Below, in pieces: positions 7,302-64,000 of a DNA stretch of 64,000 nucleotides (its first letter is position 1; each line of letters starts with the position of its first letter). The translations under genes were made by a program, and so were the position numbers. The notes under the pieces were generated by a model. It was not told the DNA's origin. It did no database searches and saw nothing but the letters and a program-made list of their open reading frames with translations. The stretch comes from Trichopria drosophilae (taxonomy: Eukaryota; Arthropoda; Insecta; Hymenoptera; Diapriidae): contig CM059582.1 in NCBI GenBank assembly GCA_030407085.1, forward strand, positions 1,116,001 to 1,180,000, written 5' to 3'.

Positions 7302-8003
7302 CTATATACAATAAATGAACTTTTTTATATATTCGTTGTTAGTATTTTGTATTTCCTGAACAGTTCCGTGAGAAATGATCCCCCCTTCATATAATACTGC
7401 TATTTTGTCAGCTATTTTAAATGCACTATGAATATCATGTGTAATCGTGATAATTGTAGGACGAAGATCTTGAGATAATTTTATTATTATCTCGTTTACT
7501 ACATCTGACATGATTGGGTCTAATCCTGAAGTTGGCTCATCCAATACAATAATTTCTGGGTTGTGTGCAATTGCTCTTGCAAGTGCCACTCTTTTCTTCA
7601 TTCCACCTGATAGTTCTACTGGAAACATGTCCGCTATGTTTTCTTCCAGTCCGACGTCATTTAACTTCTCGATTGCTAGGCGTTTTGCCTCCTTTATGCT
7701 GATATTAAAGCGTTTTTTATAATTAAAAGATATATTTTCCCACACTGTAACATGGTCAAACAAAGCGGAATTTTGAAATAAGACTCCAAATTTATTTTTG
7801 CTTTTACTATTTATTTTAATAGACCCTGAGTCTGGCGTCAGTAATCCAATAATTATTTTTGTTAATACAGATTTACCACTTCCTGAACCGCCAAGTATGA
7901 CTAATGATTCTCCTTTCGATATATTGAAAGTTATGTTGTTTAATATCGTTCTATCATCAAAGGATAAGCTTAGATTCAATATTGATATTATGGGGCTATG
8001 CAT
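7302..8003 (-). CDS. mlaF: phospholipid transport ABC ATPase MlaF
   Basis: This is the ATP-binding subunit of the Mla-type ABC importer that moves phospholipids between outer and inner membrane. The 233 residues hold Walker A GGSGSGKSVLT (near 38), Q-loop LFQNSALFDHVTVWEN, signature LSGGMKKRVALARA, Walker B IIVLDEPTSGLDP and the switch histidine in ITHDIHSA. The LFDxxTVxEN form after the Q-loop is typical of MlaF and its plastid TGD3 relatives. It starts 8 bp inside the 3' end of the permease gene, so the pair is translationally coupled. The partner mlaC lies far away at 49320. Confidence 0.9.
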   Translation of the reverse strand: MHSPIISILNLSLSFDDRTILNNITFNISKGESLVILGGSGSGKSVLTKIIIGLLTPDSGSIKINSKSKNKFGVLFQNSALFDHVTVWENISFNYKKRFNISIKEAKRLAIEKLNDVGLEENIADMFPVELSGGMKKRVALARAIAHNPEIIVLDEPTSGLDPIMSDVVNEIIIKLSQDLRPTIITITHDIHSAFKIADKIAVLYEGGIISHGTVQEIQNTNNEYIKKFIYCI

Positions 8004-11410: not shown

Positions 11411-12361
11411 TCAATGCTTTCTATAAATTTTCAAGTATTCTGGTACCACATTTTCAATTGCTAGTGGTCTAATTTTCATTGTTCCGAGATCATCTGACTT
11501 TTCGATTGAACTATTCATCATAACTTTCACCTGATCTCGAGTAAGTATAGGGCTTGCATCTCCGGTTATAGGTTTTAACAGCACAGAAACAACTTTACTT
11601 TCTAAGAAAAAGGCTATCAATCTTGCCATTGGAAAAGGTACATTGATCAGTAGACACTTTCTGTTAGTCACATTCAGAATAAACTTTAATAAGCTTTTAA
11701 AAGAGTAAACTTTTGGTCCACCTATATTATAAATTTTTTTATCTTGCTTGTTAAAGCTGATAATACGATATACCACTTCAGCTAAGTTTGTTACACATAT
11801 CGGCTGAAATTTCGTTATTCCACTACCGATTAACGGCAAAAAAGGAAGAATTGTTGCTAATCTTGCAAATTTATTGAAGAAACTATCTTCTTTACCGAAT
11901 ACAAGACTTGGCTTAATTATTATTGCCCCCTGAAATGCTGAAGTTACAGCTTTTTCACCTTCTAATTTACTTTGGGCGTATCTTGACAGCTTACTATTTT
12001 CTATTCCCATGGCAGAAAAATGTATCATCATGTATACACTTTTTATTTGCGCAGCTTTTGCTATTCTTTCAGCTACTCCAACATGAACATCATAGAAATC
12101 GTGCTTTCTTGTCTCATATAGTATTCCTACTAAATTTATAACAACATCACACCCCTCCATACTTTCTAAAATTGATTTTTCATTAAAAAAATCTCCTTCA
12201 ATTATTGATATTTGTCCTAAATTTCCACATAACTTCAGACAAGCAGCTTTTTCCTGATCACGAGTAAATATTCTTATTAAATAACCCACCGCTGCCAAGC
12301 GTCTTACGATGTGTTTTCCTATAAATCCCGTTCCACCAAAAATAACTATACGTTTTATCAC
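11411..12361 (-). CDS. NDUFA9-like NAD-binding complex I-associated protein (SDR family)
   Basis: This is an atypical short-chain dehydrogenase fold with N-terminal Rossmann motif IVIFGGTGFIGKHIVRRL and the NDUFA9-type segments VINLVGILYE, YAQSKLEGE and IIIKPSLVFGKEDSFFNKFA. Relatives in mitochondria are the 39-kDa accessory subunit of complex I; alphaproteobacterial copies are usually annotated as complex I NDUFA9 subunit family. I prefer GTG 12361 because ggaag precedes it at the right distance; an upstream TTG (12376) would add five residues. It lies 48 bp downstream of murF on the same strand. Enzymatic activity is unlikely, and a structural or assembly role is inferred from the family. 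Confidence 0.85.
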   Translation of the reverse strand: MIKRIVIFGGTGFIGKHIVRRLAAVGYLIRIFTRDQEKAACLKLCGNLGQISIIEGDFFNEKSILESMEGCDVVINLVGILYETRKHDFYDVHVGVAERIAKAAQIKSVYMMIHFSAMGIENSKLSRYAQSKLEGEKAVTSAFQGAIIIKPSLVFGKEDSFFNKFARLATILPFLPLIGSGITKFQPICVTNLAEVVYRIISFNKQDKKIYNIGGPKVYSFKSLLKFILNVTNRKCLLINVPFPMARLIAFFLESKVVSVLLKPITGDASPILTRDQVKVMMNSSIEKSDDLGTMKIRPLAIENVVPEYLKIYRKH

Positions 12362-12409
12362 AGTTAAAACTTCCAATAACTTAACTTTAAATTAATACAA
12401 TAGTTTTAT

Positions 12410-24899: not shown

Positions 24900-25919
24900 A
24901 TGTTCTGGAAAAAATTTACACAGGTTAATGAGGAAATCGTAAGAGAGAGCCTAAAAAAGGTTATAGAGAAGAAAAGTGGCAAGAATGTTGGTGTAGTATC
25001 CTCAATTGTTATTAAGGGTAAAGATGTTGCTTTTGCTCTTGAAGTTACTGAGCCAAATGAAGAATTAAGAAAAATTTGTGAGCAAGCTGTTAAGGCGATA
25101 CCGGGAGTAGGAAAGGTTACTGTAGTTGCTACTGGTCAAAAACAAGCTAGGCAACAAAAAGCTAAACTTCATATCGAAGGAGTGAAAAATATAATTGTCG
25201 TTGCTTCTGGTAAAGGAGGTGTGGGTAAGTCGACAGTTGCACTAAATCTAGCTCTTTCGTTAGCAGAATTAAAACATAAAGTTGCGCTAGTTGATGCAGA
25301 TATATATGGTCCTTCGATTCCTAAAATGTTGGGCACTGAGAAATTAAAACCAGAAATACAGAGTGGTAAAGCAATGCCTATAGAGAAACATGGTCTCTAT
25401 ACTATTTCAATTGGCTATTTTATTGATAAGGACCGCGCAGCAATATGGCGTGGACCTATGATCACAAAAGCACTTTACAATTTGCTAATGGAAACAAGGT
25501 GGTCTGATATAGAATATTTAATCATTGATACACCGCCTGGCACTGGCGATGTACATTTAAGTCTGATGGAGAATTTTAGTTTAACTGGAGCAATAATAGT
25601 TTCAACTCCACAGGAGCTTGCTTTAGTCGATGCACAAAAAATTTATGATATGTTCACAAAGCTCAGCGTGCCAATTATCGGCATTGTGGAAAATATGAGC
25701 TATTTTGTTCAAGATAATTCAAAAATACACATATTTGGAAAAGGTGGTGCAAAAAAAATGTCTGAAGAGCTGGGAGTCAAACTCTTGAGCAGAATTCCTC
25801 TAGATCCGCAAATATGTAGTGCTTCTGATTGTGGAAATCCTTCAATACTAAGTGAGGATTTAGTAAGGATTTATGAAGGCATTGCTAAAGATGTTAGGTC
25901 TTTTGTATGCAATCTATAA
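24900..25919 (+). CDS. mrp: iron-sulfur cluster carrier protein Mrp/ApbC
   Basis: This P-loop ATPase of the Mrp/NBP35 family transfers Fe-S clusters to apo-proteins. The 339 residues comprise an N-terminal MIP18-like domain (about 1-85) and the ATPase with deviant Walker A ASGKGGVGKSTVALNLALSL near residue 105. It also has LVDADIYGPSIPKML and YLIIDTPPGTGDVHLSLM. The CxxC ligand pair common in the family is not seen in this copy, whose C-terminal part reads VENMSYFVQDNSKIHIFGKG. Some alphaproteobacterial Mrp proteins also lack the pair. It stands alone between ankyrin and IS relics. Confidence 0.9.
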   Translation: MFWKKFTQVNEEIVRESLKKVIEKKSGKNVGVVSSIVIKGKDVAFALEVTEPNEELRKICEQAVKAIPGVGKVTVVATGQKQARQQKAKLHIEGVKNIIVVASGKGGVGKSTVALNLALSLAELKHKVALVDADIYGPSIPKMLGTEKLKPEIQSGKAMPIEKHGLYTISIGYFIDKDRAAIWRGPMITKALYNLLMETRWSDIEYLIIDTPPGTGDVHLSLMENFSLTGAIIVSTPQELALVDAQKIYDMFTKLSVPIIGIVENMSYFVQDNSKIHIFGKGGAKKMSEELGVKLLSRIPLDPQICSASDCGNPSILSEDLVRIYEGIAKDVRSFVCNL

Positions 25920-56586: not shown

Positions 56587-58916
56587 TTAAGAAGAAACAG
56601 AGTTTTCAATTTCGGAAATACTATCTTCAGTGGAATCAGGATCCTCAATTTTCGCTACTGACACCACCTTTTCTCTACTCTCTGTTTTAAACAGAGTGAC
56701 TCCTTGAGTGCTACGTCCTGCAATTCTGATATCATTTACTGAAATACGAATTAACTTTCCTTTATCTGTAATAAGCATGATATTATCACCCTGTTCAACC
56801 GGAAAGCTAGCAACAACATTACCGTTTCTATCGGTAGTAAGGATATTTGTAATACCAACACCACCTCTATTTGTTACCCTATACTCATATGCAGAAGTTC
56901 TTTTACCAAAGCCATTTTCGGTAATAGTTAATATAAACTCCTCACTCACTGCAAGTTTTAAGAATAATTCGTTATCTATTCCTAAATCATTCAAAGTCTT
57001 TTCCAATTTAGAATCAATAGAGTTATTAATCGCAGCCCCCAGTCTTTTTGCAAGTGGAACTTTTAAGTAAAGTTCTTTTGTTTCTGTTGCTACACCTATC
57101 CCATTTAATATGGTCATGGATATCACGCTGTCATTCTTTACAAGTTTGATACCTCTTACGCCATCTGAATTGCGACTTTTAAATTGACGCACATCACTTA
57201 CAACAAATCTGATACTTTTGCCGAATCTTGTTGAAAGAAAAACATGATCAATTTCATTGCATACTTTAACTGATATTAACTTATCTCCTTCATCGAGCTT
57301 GATTGCTATTTTTCCATTGCTTGGAATATAGTGAAAATCCGCTAAAGAATTGCGCCTTATGTTCCCATGAGCAGTAGCAAAAATTATGTTTTGATTTTCA
57401 TCATTTTCACTTGGTAATGGCATTATATTAGTTATAGTTTCACCATCGCTAAGCGGGAATATATTAACAAGTGCTCTTCCACGTGCAGTTGGCTCTGCAA
57501 GAGGTAACTTATAAACTTTTAATCTATAAACTCGGCCAATATTAGAAAAGAATAAAAGGCTAGTATGGGTATTCCCAACAAATAATTTTGTGGTTACATC
57601 CTCTTCTTTTAATCCTTGTCCTAGCTTTCCTTTTCCACCACGACGCTGAGTTCTATAATGAGAAAGCTTCACACGCTTAATATAACCATTCATAGTTACG
57701 GTTATCACCATATCCTCTTGTGGAATTAGATCTTCAGCTTCAATGTCCGTATCTGATTCCTCTATTGAAGTTTTTCGCGGCACAGCAAATCTGTTCTTTA
57801 TTTCTTGTAGATTGTTTTTTATTTCTTTCACCAACTTCTCTCCTGAGCCAAGAAAAGCGATATATTCTTTTATCAGGTTGATCATTGAACTTAGCTCAGC
57901 TTCTAATTTGTCTTTTTCAAGGCCTGTTAAACGTTGCAATTTCATATCAAGAATAGCTTTCGTTTGCAGCTCAGTTAATCTATACACTCCGTCTTTCAAA
58001 AAGCTCGTGCTGTCTGAGATTAATCCAATAATTGTGCTTATCTCAGCTGAAGTTTTCCATTCTTTATTTAAAAGTTCTCTACTTGCTTCCGCAGGATCTT
58101 TTGCACCACGGATGATTTTTATCACTTCATCTATGCTCAAGACCGCAATGTAGAGCCCTATATATATATGAGCTTTTTCCCTCGTTTTTCTTAGACGAAA
58201 CTCTGTTCTCCTGATTAATACTTCTTTTCTAAAATCAATAAAAGCAGCTATAATTTCTTTCAACGACATCAAAGCAGGCCTGTTGTTGTTGAGGACTAAA
58301 GTGTTAACACTAAAACTACTTCTTAGTGGAGTTAGTCCCAATATTTGATTAAGTATAAAACTTGCTTCAGCATTTCTTCTGAGGTCAATTACTACCCTAA
58401 TACCAGACTTATCAGATTCATCCCTAATTTCTGTTATGCCATCAATTCTTTTTTCTTTTACAAGCTCACCTATCTTCTCAATTAATTTTACTTTATTTAC
58501 CTGGTAAGGTATTTCATCAATCACTATTGCTTGCCTATCTTGTGGCAGGTCTTCCATGTGAATCTTGCCTTGCACAACAATTGATCCACGACCCGTTGCA
58601 AATGCCGATCTTATTCCAGACCTTCCAAGAATCGTTCCCCCAGTTGGGAAATCCGGTCCTGGCATCACTTCAAGTAACTCATCCAAAGTAACCTCAGGAT
58701 TATCTATATATAACATACAAGCATCTATTATTTCTCCAAGGTTGTGAGAAGGAATATTGGTTGCCATACCAACTGCAACACCGCTTGCACCATTTACCAA
58801 TAGATTCGGAAATTCTGCAGGCAGTACAACAGGCTCTGTTTCATTTCCATCATAGTTTGGCCTAAAATCAACTGTATCTTCGTCAATATCATTTAGTAAA
58901 AAATGCGACACTCTGT
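56587..58916 (-). pseudogene. gyrA: DNA gyrase subunit A, 5' end missing at the junction
   Basis: GyrA is the DNA-cleaving subunit of gyrase. About 775 residues are present in one open frame, from HFLLNDIDEDTVDFRPNYDG through PNLLVNGASGVAVGMATNIP and PGPDFPTGGTILGRSG to a normal end (SISEIENSVSS, stop at 56587). The C-terminal beta-pinwheel repeats are intact and the GyrA-box is in HYRTQRRGGKGKLGQGL. The first about 140-150 residues, with the catalytic tyrosine and the winged helix, are absent. Upstream of about 58916 the sequence becomes pure C/A repeat. Whether the truncation is real or an assembly join is uncertain. Confidence 0.95.
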
Positions 58917-59416
58917 CCCCCCCCCCCACCCCCCCCCCCCCCCACCCCCCCCCCCCCCCACCCCCCCCCCCCCCCACCCCCCCCCCCCCCCACCCCCCCC
59001 CCCCCCCACCCCCCCCCCCCCCCACCCCCCCCCCCCCCCACCCCCCCCCCCCCCCACCCCCCCCCCCCCCCACCCCCCCCCCCCCCCACCCCCCCCCCCC
59101 CCCACCCCCCCCCCCCCCCACCCCCCCCCCCCCCCACCCCCCCCCCCCCCCACCCCCCCCCCCCCCCACCCCCCCCCCCCCCCACCCCCCCCCCCCCCCA
59201 CCCCCCCCCCCCCCCACCCCCCCCCCCCCCCACCCCCCCCCCCCCCCACCCCCCCCCCCCCCCACCCCCCCCCCCCCCCACCCCCCCCCCCCCCCACCCC
59301 CCCCCCCCCCCACCCCCCCCCCCCCCCACCCCCCCCCCCCCCCACCCCCCCCCCCCCCCACCCCCCCCCCCCCCCACCCCCCCCCCCCCCCACCCCCCCC
59401 CCCCCCCACCCCCCCA
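58917..59416. repeat. perfect C15A microsatellite
   Basis: From 58917 the strand is C only, except for a single A every 16 bases (first at 58928, last regular one at 59408, 31 in all), with no error in about 480 bp. The unit is fifteen C and one A. A shorter final run of 7 C and an A at 59416 leads into the satellite. The frame is open on every side only because glycine or proline codons repeat. Its perfection suggests an assembler cycle or other artefact, but a real G/C-rich simple repeat in host DNA is possible. Confidence 0.9.
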
Positions 59417-62400
59417 TCTCTTTTAGGGGGTGGGGGGGGGGGCTGTAGTGTGTATTCCGCAAGTCCAATGACATAAAAACGTCTTTCTACCATGTTAGTT
59501 AACTTGACGAAAAAACGAAATACATTAGAATTTTCTCTTTTAGGGGTGGGGGGTGCGGTAGTGTGTATCCCGCGAGACCAATGACATCACTTCATCTCTC
59601 TACCGCTATAAAGAATATTTTAAGATATTTTTGAAAAATCTTTGTGTTGGTTAAATTGACCAAAAAACGAAATAAAGTGGATTTTTCACTTTTAGGGAGT
59701 GGGGGCTAGTCTAGGGTGTATTCCGCGAGTCCAATGAAGTCATATCGTATTTCTACCATTACAAAGAAAATTTTAAGATACTTTTGATAAATATTTGTGT
59801 TGGTTAAATTGACCAAAAAACGAAATAAAGTGGATTTTTCACTTTTAGGGAGTGGGGGCTAGTCTAGGGTGTATTCCGCGAGTCCAATGAAGTCATATCG
59901 TATTTCTACCATTACAAAGAAAATTTTAAGATACTTTTGATAAATATTTGTGTTGGTTAAATTGACCAAAAAACGAAATACATTAGAATTTTCTCTTTTA
60001 GGGGGTGGGGCGTGCTGTAGTGTGTATTCCGCGAGTCCAATGATGTCATATCGTATTTCTACCATTTTAAAGAAAATTTGAAGGTATTTTTGAAAAATAT
60101 TTGTGTTGGTTAAATTGACCAGAAAACGAAATAAAGTGGATTTTTCACTTTTAGGGGGTGGGGGCTAGTCTAGGGTGTATTTCGCGAGTCCAATGAAGTC
60201 ATATCGTCTTTCTACCATTTTAAAAAAAATTTGAAGGTATTTTTGAAAAATATTTGTGTTGGTTAACTTGGCGAAAGAACGAAATACATTAGTATTTTCT
60301 CTTTTAGGGGGTGGGGGGTGCTGTAGTGTGTATTCCGCGAGTCTGATGACGTCATATCGTCTTTCTACCATTATAAAGAAAATTTTAAGATATTTTTGAA
60401 AAATATTTGTGTTGGTTAACTTGACGAAAAAACGAAATACATTAGAATTTTTTCTTTTAGGGGGTGGGGGGTGCTGTAGTGTGTATTCCGCGAGTCCAAT
60501 GATGTCATATCGTCTTTCTACCATTATAAAGAAAATTTTAAGACATTTTTGAAAAATATTTGTATTGGTTAACTTGACGAAAGAACGAAATACATTAGAA
60601 TTTTCTCTTTTAGGGAGTGGGGGGTGCTGTAGTGTGTTTTCCGCGAATCCAATGACATAAAAACGTCTTTCTACCATCGTAAAGAAAATTTTAAGAGATG
60701 TTTGAAAAATATTTGTGTTGGTTAAATTGACCAGAAAACGAAATAAAGTGGATTTTTCACTTTTATGGGGTGGGGGCTAGTCTAGGGTGTATTCCGCGAG
60801 TCCAATGAAGTCATATCGTCTTTCTACCACTATAAAGAAAATTTTAAGATATTTTTGAAAAATATTTGTGTTGGTTAACTTGACGAAAAAACGAAATACA
60901 TTAGAATTTTCTCTTTTAGGGGGTGGGGCGTGCTGTAGTGTGTATTCCGCGAGTCCAATGACATAATAACGTCTTTCTACCATTGTAAAGAAAATTTTAA
61001 GATCTTTTTGAAAAATATTTGTGTTGGTTAAATTGACCAAAAAACAAAATACAGTGGATTTTTCACTTTTATGGGGTGGGGGCTAGTCTAGGGTGTATTC
61101 CGCGAGTCCAATGAAGTCATATCGTCTTTCTACCACTATAAAGAATATTTTAAGATATTTTTGAAAAATATTTGTGTTGGTTAACTTGACGAAAGAACGA
61201 AATACATTAGAATTTTCTCTTTTAGGGGGTGGGGGGTGCTGTAGTGTGTATCCCGCGAGACCAATGACATCAATTCATCTCTCTACCACTATAAAGAATA
61301 TTTTAAGATATTTTTGAAAAATATTTGTGTTGGTTAACTCGACGAAAAAACGAAATACATTAGAATTTTCTCTTTTAGGGGGTGGGGGGTGCTGTAGTGT
61401 GTATTCCGCGAGTCTGATGACGTCATATCGTCTTTCTACCATTATAAAGAAAATTTTAAGATATTTTTGATAAATATTTGTGTTGGTTAACTTGACGAAA
61501 AAACAAAATACATTAGAATTTTCTCTTTTAGAGGGTGGGGCGTGCTGTAGTGTGTATTCCGCGAGACCAATGACATCAATTCATCTCTCTACCACTATAA
61601 AGAATATTTTAAGACATTTTTGAAAAATATTTGTATTGGTTAACTCGACGAAAAAACGAAATACATTAGAATTTGCTCTTTTAGGGGGGGGCTGTAGCCT
61701 GTATTCCGCGAGTCCAATGACATAATAACGTCTTTCTACCATTGTAAAGAAAATTTTAAGAGATGTTTGAAAAATATTTGTGTTGGTTAACTTGACGAAA
61801 AAACGAAATACATTAGAATTTTCTCTTTTAGGGGTTGGGGGGTGCTGTAGTGTGTATTCCGCGAGTCCAATGACATAAAAACGTCTTTCTACCATTGTAA
61901 AGAAAATTTGAAGGTATTTTTGAAAAATATTTGTGTTCGTTAACTGGACGAAAGAACGAAATACATTACAATTTTCTCTTTTAGGGGGTGGGGGGTGCTG
62001 TAGTGTGTATTCCGCGAGTCCAATGACATAATAACGTCTTTCTACCATTGTAAAGAAAATTTTAAGAGATGTTTGAAAAATATTTGTGTTGGTTAACTTG
62101 ACGAAAAAACGAAATACATTAGAATTTTCTCTTTTAGGGGTTGGGGGTGCTGTAGTGTGTATTCCGCGAGTCCAATGACATAATAACGTCTTTCTACCAT
62201 TGTAAAGAAAATTTTAAGAGATGTTTGAAAAATATTTGTGTTGGTTAACTTGACGAAAGAACGAAATACATTAGAATTTTCTCTTTTAGGGGGTAGGGGT
62301 GCTGTAGTGTGTATTCCCCGAGACCAATGACGTCATATCATCTTTCTACCACTATAAAGAAAATTTTAAGATATTTTTGAAAAATATTTGTGTTGGTTAA

Positions 62401-64000
62401 ATTGACCAAAAAACGAAATAAAGTGGATTTTTCACTTTTAGGGAGTGGGGGCTAGTCTAGGGTGTATTCCGCGAGTCCAATGAAGTCATATCGTATTTCT
62501 ACCATTAGAAAGAAAATTTTAAGATATTTTTGAAAAATATTTGTGTTGGTTAAATTGACGAAAAAACGAAATACATTAGAATTTTCTCTTTTAGGGGGTA
62601 GGGGTGCTGTAGTGTGTATTCCCCGAGACCAATGACGTCATATCATCTTTCTACCACTATAAAGAAAATTTTAAGACATTTTTGAAAAATATTTGTGTTG
62701 GTTAAATTGACCAAAAAACGAAATACATTAGAATTTTCTCTTTTAGGGGTTGGGGGGTGCTGTAGTGTGTATTCCGCGAGTCCAATGACATAATAACCTC
62801 TTTCTACCATTGTAAAGAAAATTTTAAGAGATGTTTGAAAAATATTTGTGTTGGTTAACTTGACGAAAAAACGAAATACATTAGAATTTTTTCTTTTAGG
62901 GGGTGGGGGTGCTGTAGTGTGTATTCCGCGAGTCCAATGATGTCATATCGTCTTTCTACCATTATAAAAAAAATTTTAAGACATTTTTGAAAAATATTTG
63001 TATTGGTTAACTCGACGAAAAAACGAAATACATTAGAATTTTTCACTTTTATGGGGTGGGGGCTAGTCTAGGGTGTATTCCGCGAGTCCAATGAAGTCAT
63101 ATCGTCTTTCTACCACTATAAAGAAAATTTTAAGATATTTTTGAAAAATATTTGTGTTGGTTAACTTGACGAAAAAACGAAATACATTAGAATTTTCTCT
63201 TTTAGAGTGTGGGGCGTGCTGTAGTGTGTATTCCGCGAGTCCAATGATGTCATATCGTATTTCTACCATTTTAAAGAAAATTTGAAGGAATTTTTGAAAA
63301 ATATTTGTGTTGGTTAACTTGACGAAAAAACAAAATACATTAGAATTTTCTCTTTTAGGGGGTGGGGCGTGCTGTAGTGTGTATTCCGCGAGTCCAGTGA
63401 TGTCATATCGTATTTCGTCCATTTTAAAGAAAATTTTAAGGTGTTTGTGAAAAATATTTGCGTTGGTTAACTTGACGAAAGAACGAAATAAAGTGGATTT
63501 TTCACTTTTAGGGGGTGGGGACTAGTCTAGGGTGTATTCCGCGAGTCCAATGAAGTCATATCGTATTTCTACCATCACAAAGAAAATTTTAAGATATTTT
63601 TGAAAAATATTTGTGTTGGTTAACTTGACGAAAAAACGAAATAAATTAGAATTTTCTCTTTTAGGGGGTAGGGGTGCTGTAGTGTGTATTCCGCGAGTCC
63701 AATGATGTCATATCGTCTTTCCACCATTATAAAAAAAATTTTAAGACATTTTTGAAAAATATTTGTATTGGTTAACTCGACGAAAAAACGAAATACATTA
63801 GAATTTTTCACTTTTATGGGGTGGGGGCTAGTCTAGGGTGTATTCCGCGAGTCCAATGAAGTCATATCGTCTTTCTACCATTGTAAAGAGAATTTTAAGA
63901 TATTTTTGAAAATTATTTGTGTTTGTTAACTTAACGAAAAAACGAAATACATTAGAATTTTTTACTTTTATGGGGTGGGGGCTAGTCTAGTTTGTATTCC
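59416..64000. repeat. 153-bp tandem satellite array, about 31 monomers
   Basis: The motif attccgcgagtccaatga recurs about every 153 bp from about 59453 to the window end, where the array is still running. Each monomer has a G-rich tract (ttttagggggtgggg), the attccgcgag block, a tcatatcgtctttctacca block and an AT-rich part with gaaaaatatttgtgttggtt. Class A has cattagaattttctctttta before the G-tract and tgctgtagtgtg after it. Class B has aagtggatttttcactttta and gctagtctaggg, and three late monomers are hybrids. Bases 59688-59840 are duplicated exactly at 59841-59993. A segment near 62895-63110 returns 765 bp (five units) later. This is eukaryotic satellite-like DNA. Confidence 0.9.

Follow-up and report, generated by a model that had tools for sequence, protein, structure and literature searches.

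A scaffold gap written as C15A repeats beside a Wolbachia contig very probably misplaced in a Trichopria drosophilae pseudochromosome

Wolbachia contigs left in eukaryote assemblies as cobiont contamination appear as loose contigs in the portions of two reports cited here (PMC11016177, PMC9894559). In Drosophila ananassae, much of a Wolbachia genome is assigned to host chromosome 4 as a nuclear Wolbachia insertion (nuwt), and the relevant passages of that report describe numerous host retrotransposons and duplications in the nuclear copies (PMC4299567). Scaffold gaps of 500 Ns between contigs, placed after 3D-DNA, are likewise reported in parts of PMC10320752 and PMC12879420. Here, we analyzed a 64,000-bp stretch of the Trichopria drosophilae assembly (hereafter the window), which spans positions 1,116,001-1,180,000 on the + strand of pseudochromosome C1 (CM059582.1). 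A Wolbachia gyrA lacking its 5' end, a block of C15A repeats and a 153-bp satellite follow one another from position 56587 to its end.

As far as those sources describe their cases, the window resembles each of them and differs from each. A Wolbachia contig is present in a eukaryote assembly, as in the contamination cases, but it lies inside a chromosome-size scaffold instead of standing loose. As in D. ananassae, much of a Wolbachia genome is assigned to a host chromosome, but here there is no sequenced junction and no host transposon was recognised in the parts read. The block is about 500 bp long, lies between contigs and repeats one string everywhere it was measured, as fixed 500-N gaps do, but (C15A)n stands in place of N. 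The sequences are real and their join is artificial: it consists of an assembly gap and, most likely, a misplaced symbiont contig.

The C15A block between two scaffolded contigs

The block occupies positions 58917-59415 of the window, is assigned no strand and has a perfect 16-bp period (31.2 copies, 100% match). The original prediction treated this C-rich repeat as real DNA. An exact search for (C15A)3 across the host assembly, which is eukaryotic and comprises 936,140,536 bases in 509 contigs, returned 22,206 matches on the + strand and none on the - strand. The places listed were on C1 only, in ascending order, and covered three whole blocks and the start of a fourth. The three whole blocks held 28, 28 and 29 overlapping matches, giving an estimate of about 770-790 filler blocks in total if the others resemble these three. 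The four blocks measured, which start at C1:1,174,917, 1,197,420, 5,578,092 and 5,621,261, were 499, 500, 499 and 500 bp long, respectively. Their 60-base flanks were gyrA/satellite, satellite/other, other/other and other/other, where "other" flanks were assigned to the host by place and not by homology.

A genuine repeat would be expected on both strands. The single orientation and constant length over many places therefore indicate that the string is not a genomic repeat, and its reading as real DNA did not hold. Three features of a scaffold gap were found: a length that stays constant across all four blocks measured, one string in one orientation and many copies, and flanks that differ from block to block. 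The C15A block is thus a standard scaffold gap of about 500 bp, filled with one fixed string in place of N; chance cannot produce it. N itself was absent from the window and from the assembly stretches checked for it. As a control, (C15A)3 read backwards gave 22,145 forward and 0 reverse matches, which is uninformative because the periodic string matches in this form too.

Since the block is gap filler, no junction between gyrA and the satellite was ever assembled, and the assembly asserts an order of contigs, not a sequence join. The proposed check for single reads that cross from gyrA into satellite would therefore test a junction that is not claimed. The earliest (C15A)3 match on C1 belongs to this block, so C1:1-1,174,916 is free of such gaps and is read as one contig. 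Piece by piece, C1 begins with this Wolbachia contig of about 1.175 Mb, a gap, a satellite contig of 22,004 bp, a second gap and a host contig of 4.38 Mb.

A C/G hairpin at 59397-59442 (z -3.45) and sequencing artefacts at G tracts were considered and dropped, because the string is frequent and has a single orientation. A literature search by title on Wolbachia-satellite chimeras and homopolymer artefacts yielded no paper describing such a filler. Neither the filler triplet nor a satellite 22-mer was matched exactly in viral contigs, and phage records gave no match.

Sequences on either side of the gap

Positions 1-58916 of the window, to which no strand is assigned, form the right-hand end of the Wolbachia contig (C1:1-1,174,916), which contains no filler block. 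This assignment draws on NCBIfam matches, Rfam RNAs, the identity of gyrA, the place on C1 and the bacterial genes leftward. The gyrA frame (56587-58916, - strand), identified by open reading frame (ORF), profile and protein alignment, has its own stop and stays open from 56587 as far as the C-rich block. Its upstream end lies at about 58916, with the codons for R-V-S-H-F-L-L-N-D-I-D-E-D as the last before the block. Aligned with the 902-residue GyrA of a group A Wolbachia, the product matched over residues 126-898 with 96% identity, confirming that a conserved gyrA frame runs up to HFLLNDIDED; the frame as annotated covers residues 126-902 of about 902, its 5' end being cut off by the contig end. 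The two best GyrA models were matched from positions 122-123 to the end, with scores under the whole-protein cut-offs, as expected of a truncated gene. About 125 N-terminal residues are missing, and not the 140-150 initially estimated. Among them is the RYTEAR tyrosine (Tyr119 in the reference protein), as had been proposed; from E. coli GyrA, we take this tyrosine to be the catalytic residue.

Among the 70 ORFs of at least 120 amino acids listed for the window, 20 were picked for an NCBIfam scan. All 20 had family matches, and 16 scored above the curated cut-off for one model or more. Rfam matches in the window comprised a Wolbachia small RNA (sRNA), 6S RNA and signal recognition particle (SRP) RNA. 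The WsnRNA46 match (1270-1416), inside a glutamate-synthase-like ORF (34-1839), overlaps a WPE palindromic-element domain at residues 420-455 of that ORF; the WsnRNA46 sRNA family and the WPE palindromic repeat may be one sequence. Four ORFs of 260 amino acids were considered as copies of a single insertion sequence, an idea rejected because their starts differ and BLAST of one of them detected no further copy within the window.

Base 1 of C1 falls within a bacterial purC, matched at profile positions 98-274 of 279, and purM comes next. The contig thus ends inside purC on the left and inside gyrA on the right, and neither end carries host DNA. Between these ends, ten samples of 1.5 kb were taken from 0.1 to 1.0 Mb of C1. 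Bacterial families were found at all nine places scanned on the contig, namely C1:1-3000 and eight of the ten samples; the families in the longest ORF of each of the eight include recJ, rplA, proS and virB9. These leftward samples are called Wolbachia because they share a contig with the window, not by comparison to Wolbachia. No satellite was found in the ten samples. All ten had open frames of at least 170 amino acids, a feature that does not discriminate alone, as some host samples had equally long frames. The observed/expected CpG ratio was 0.49 in C1:1-3000 but exceeded 1 at the starts of all 20 contigs C2-C21, a contrast that fits two sources while naming neither. Among those 20 starts, the first 10,000 bases of C9, a loose contig of 253 kb, had both the highest GC content (51%) and the highest ORF cover (94%); the start of C9 is possibly another organism or a repeat.

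To the right of the gap, positions 59416-64000 (+ strand) are the left end of a host contig of about 22 kb (C1:1,175,416-1,197,419), which consisted of the 153-bp satellite wherever it was read. Repeat measurement, satellite matches and the block flanks define this feature. On reading the sequence, a shortened monomer begins at about 59416, ahead of the regular array at 59493-64000 (153-bp period, 29.5 copies, 88% match). Compared in pairs, the 29 monomers of this array show 78-100% similarity, with a mean of 88%. Beyond the window, the satellite fills C1:1,180,001-1,186,000 and 1,190,001-1,191,500 and extends to 1,197,419, so that the 22,004-bp contig begins and finishes within satellite; the satellite is absent at C1:1,200,001. 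Farther along, a host ORF at C1:1.23 Mb matched 18 proteins, those with names coming from Haematobia, Vollenhovia, Rhagoletis and Musca, with 25-32% identity. An assembly search with a satellite-bearing query gave at least 39 matches, a lower bound since 6 of 85 candidates were scored; the satellite part accounted for 38. The 917 bases of gyrA in this query drew no match among the candidates scored, a result that bears no information on copies because the window itself was not listed either. Matches were located on C1 near 98.8 and 135.05 Mb, on C2 near 29.9 Mb, and on the loose contigs C171 and C295, and the arrays were bordered by non-satellite DNA where their flanks were read. The 153-bp satellite is therefore host DNA. 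With gyrA at 96% identity on the left and a satellite found elsewhere in the host assembly on the right, the proposal that one side is Wolbachia and the other host satellite was borne out.

Two of the distant arrays are related beyond the repeat itself. The array on C2 (from 29,894,431) and that on C171 have a common left flank, aligned at 89.5% over 793 columns with satellite counted, and, by reading, a common right flank. The C2 left flank carries many small insertions beside a G tract, a pattern suggestive of a low-quality consensus close to G-rich DNA or of a copy that has diverged.

Explanations for the placement

We consider it very probable that the scaffold gap stands beside a symbiont contig wrongly kept in the host pseudochromosome. 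This reading is favored by the lack of host DNA at the contig ends, by the little sign of decay and by the lack of any recognised host element, both in the parts read. The position of the contig also argues for it, at the extreme end of the largest scaffold and beside a repeat contig (C1 to C6 measure 218.7, 210.9, 146.9, 120.9, 112.0 and 108.2 Mb). Such a site is where scaffolders would tend to place pieces that lack true neighbors. The contig would derive from a live symbiont present in the sample; for want of a true neighbor, the scaffolder, using Hi-C or similar data, would have put it at the chromosome end. Its position inside a chromosome may then have let it slip past contaminant removal. 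The remainder of the Wolbachia genome must be supposed unassembled or filtered out; contaminant filtering, if applied to loose contigs, would account for its absence. Of the original leading explanation, a bad join through misassembly at a repeat, the bad join stands; the misassembly at a repeat does not, since the stretch is gap filler between scaffolded contigs.

Several observations weigh against a misplaced symbiont contig. The rest of the Wolbachia genome would be expected on other contigs, although this is not a defining feature, since loose contigs may be filtered; gyrA residues 1-125, searched in all 509 contigs, had no close match. Nor did this search yield a second, intact gyrA contig, for which the original prediction had proposed to look. 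The sole other match, on C2, was weak (33% identity, E 9.9e-4, residues 29-134, one stop). As these residues have no close match, the remainder of the Wolbachia genome seems to be absent from the assembly. Furthermore, the Wolbachia contig is not closed as a circle, and four of the 20 scanned ORFs (34-1839, at the window edge; 7302-8003; 11411-12376; 24900-25919) passed no cut-off among the models shown. Against the gap reading stands a one-base variation in block length.

The strongest alternative is a real nuclear insertion of about 1.17 Mb of Wolbachia DNA at the end of chromosome 1 by the satellite, with Hi-C placement correct and only the satellite junction unassembled. The contig does lie on C1 with a host satellite contig adjoining, and the missing gyrA 5' end, without a close match in the assembly, is what a truncated insertion would give. 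Insertions of nearly the whole Wolbachia genome exist in D. ananassae, according to the cited part of that report (PMC4299567). However, the placement depends on scaffolding only, and neither contig end shows host DNA. No sequenced Wolbachia-host junction was found: on the left the contig starts with the first base of C1, and on the right it meets the gap. No host element was recognised in the 58.9 kb of the window or in the eight scanned samples of the 1.17-Mb contig; the D. ananassae insertion, in contrast, contains many host retrotransposons in the passages describing it (PMC4299567). Decay and host elements are usual in an insertion but not required; 16 of the 20 scanned ORFs passed curated cut-offs, which speaks against one, four did not, and the eight samples matched bacterial families. 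A very recent insertion would look equally intact. We regard a nuclear insertion as unlikely overall, and it is quite improbable that a nearly complete, intact Wolbachia genome of about 1.17 Mb at the end of chromosome 1 by the satellite represents a very young whole-genome transfer caught before decay. As to the idea that the whole window could be a nuclear Wolbachia insertion, the window does lie on a host pseudochromosome, but that the contig belongs there is judged unlikely.

A chimeric contig, in which reads truly lead from gyrA across a C15A repeat to the satellite by misassembly at the repeat, is very improbable. In its favor, the window contains no N, the block is continuous with both sides, and a long run of G, complementary to the C tract, stands in the first piece of satellite. 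The identical string nevertheless occurs 22,206 times in one orientation, and four blocks of about 500 bp each lie between different sequences; string count and block measurements in practice refute a chimera through C15A. It is hardly conceivable that C15A is a true host minisatellite happening to sit at contig ends: its perfect 16-bp periodicity would suit one, and G-rich tracts with interrupting bases edge the satellite arrays on C2 and C171 (in the 39th match of the satellite search, 43 block bases align at 91% with the irregular G tract edging the C2 array), but these tracts are short and irregular, reverse matches number 0 against 22,206 forward, and length is constant in four of four blocks.

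Meaning for the assembly

Filler that resembles sequence conceals scaffold gaps from readers and from tools that look for N. Given the many C15A matches in the assembly, scaffold gaps may be taken for sequence by other analyses. The finding matters for data hygiene, as a bacterial contig of more than 1 Mb in a host pseudochromosome would be misread as horizontal transfer.

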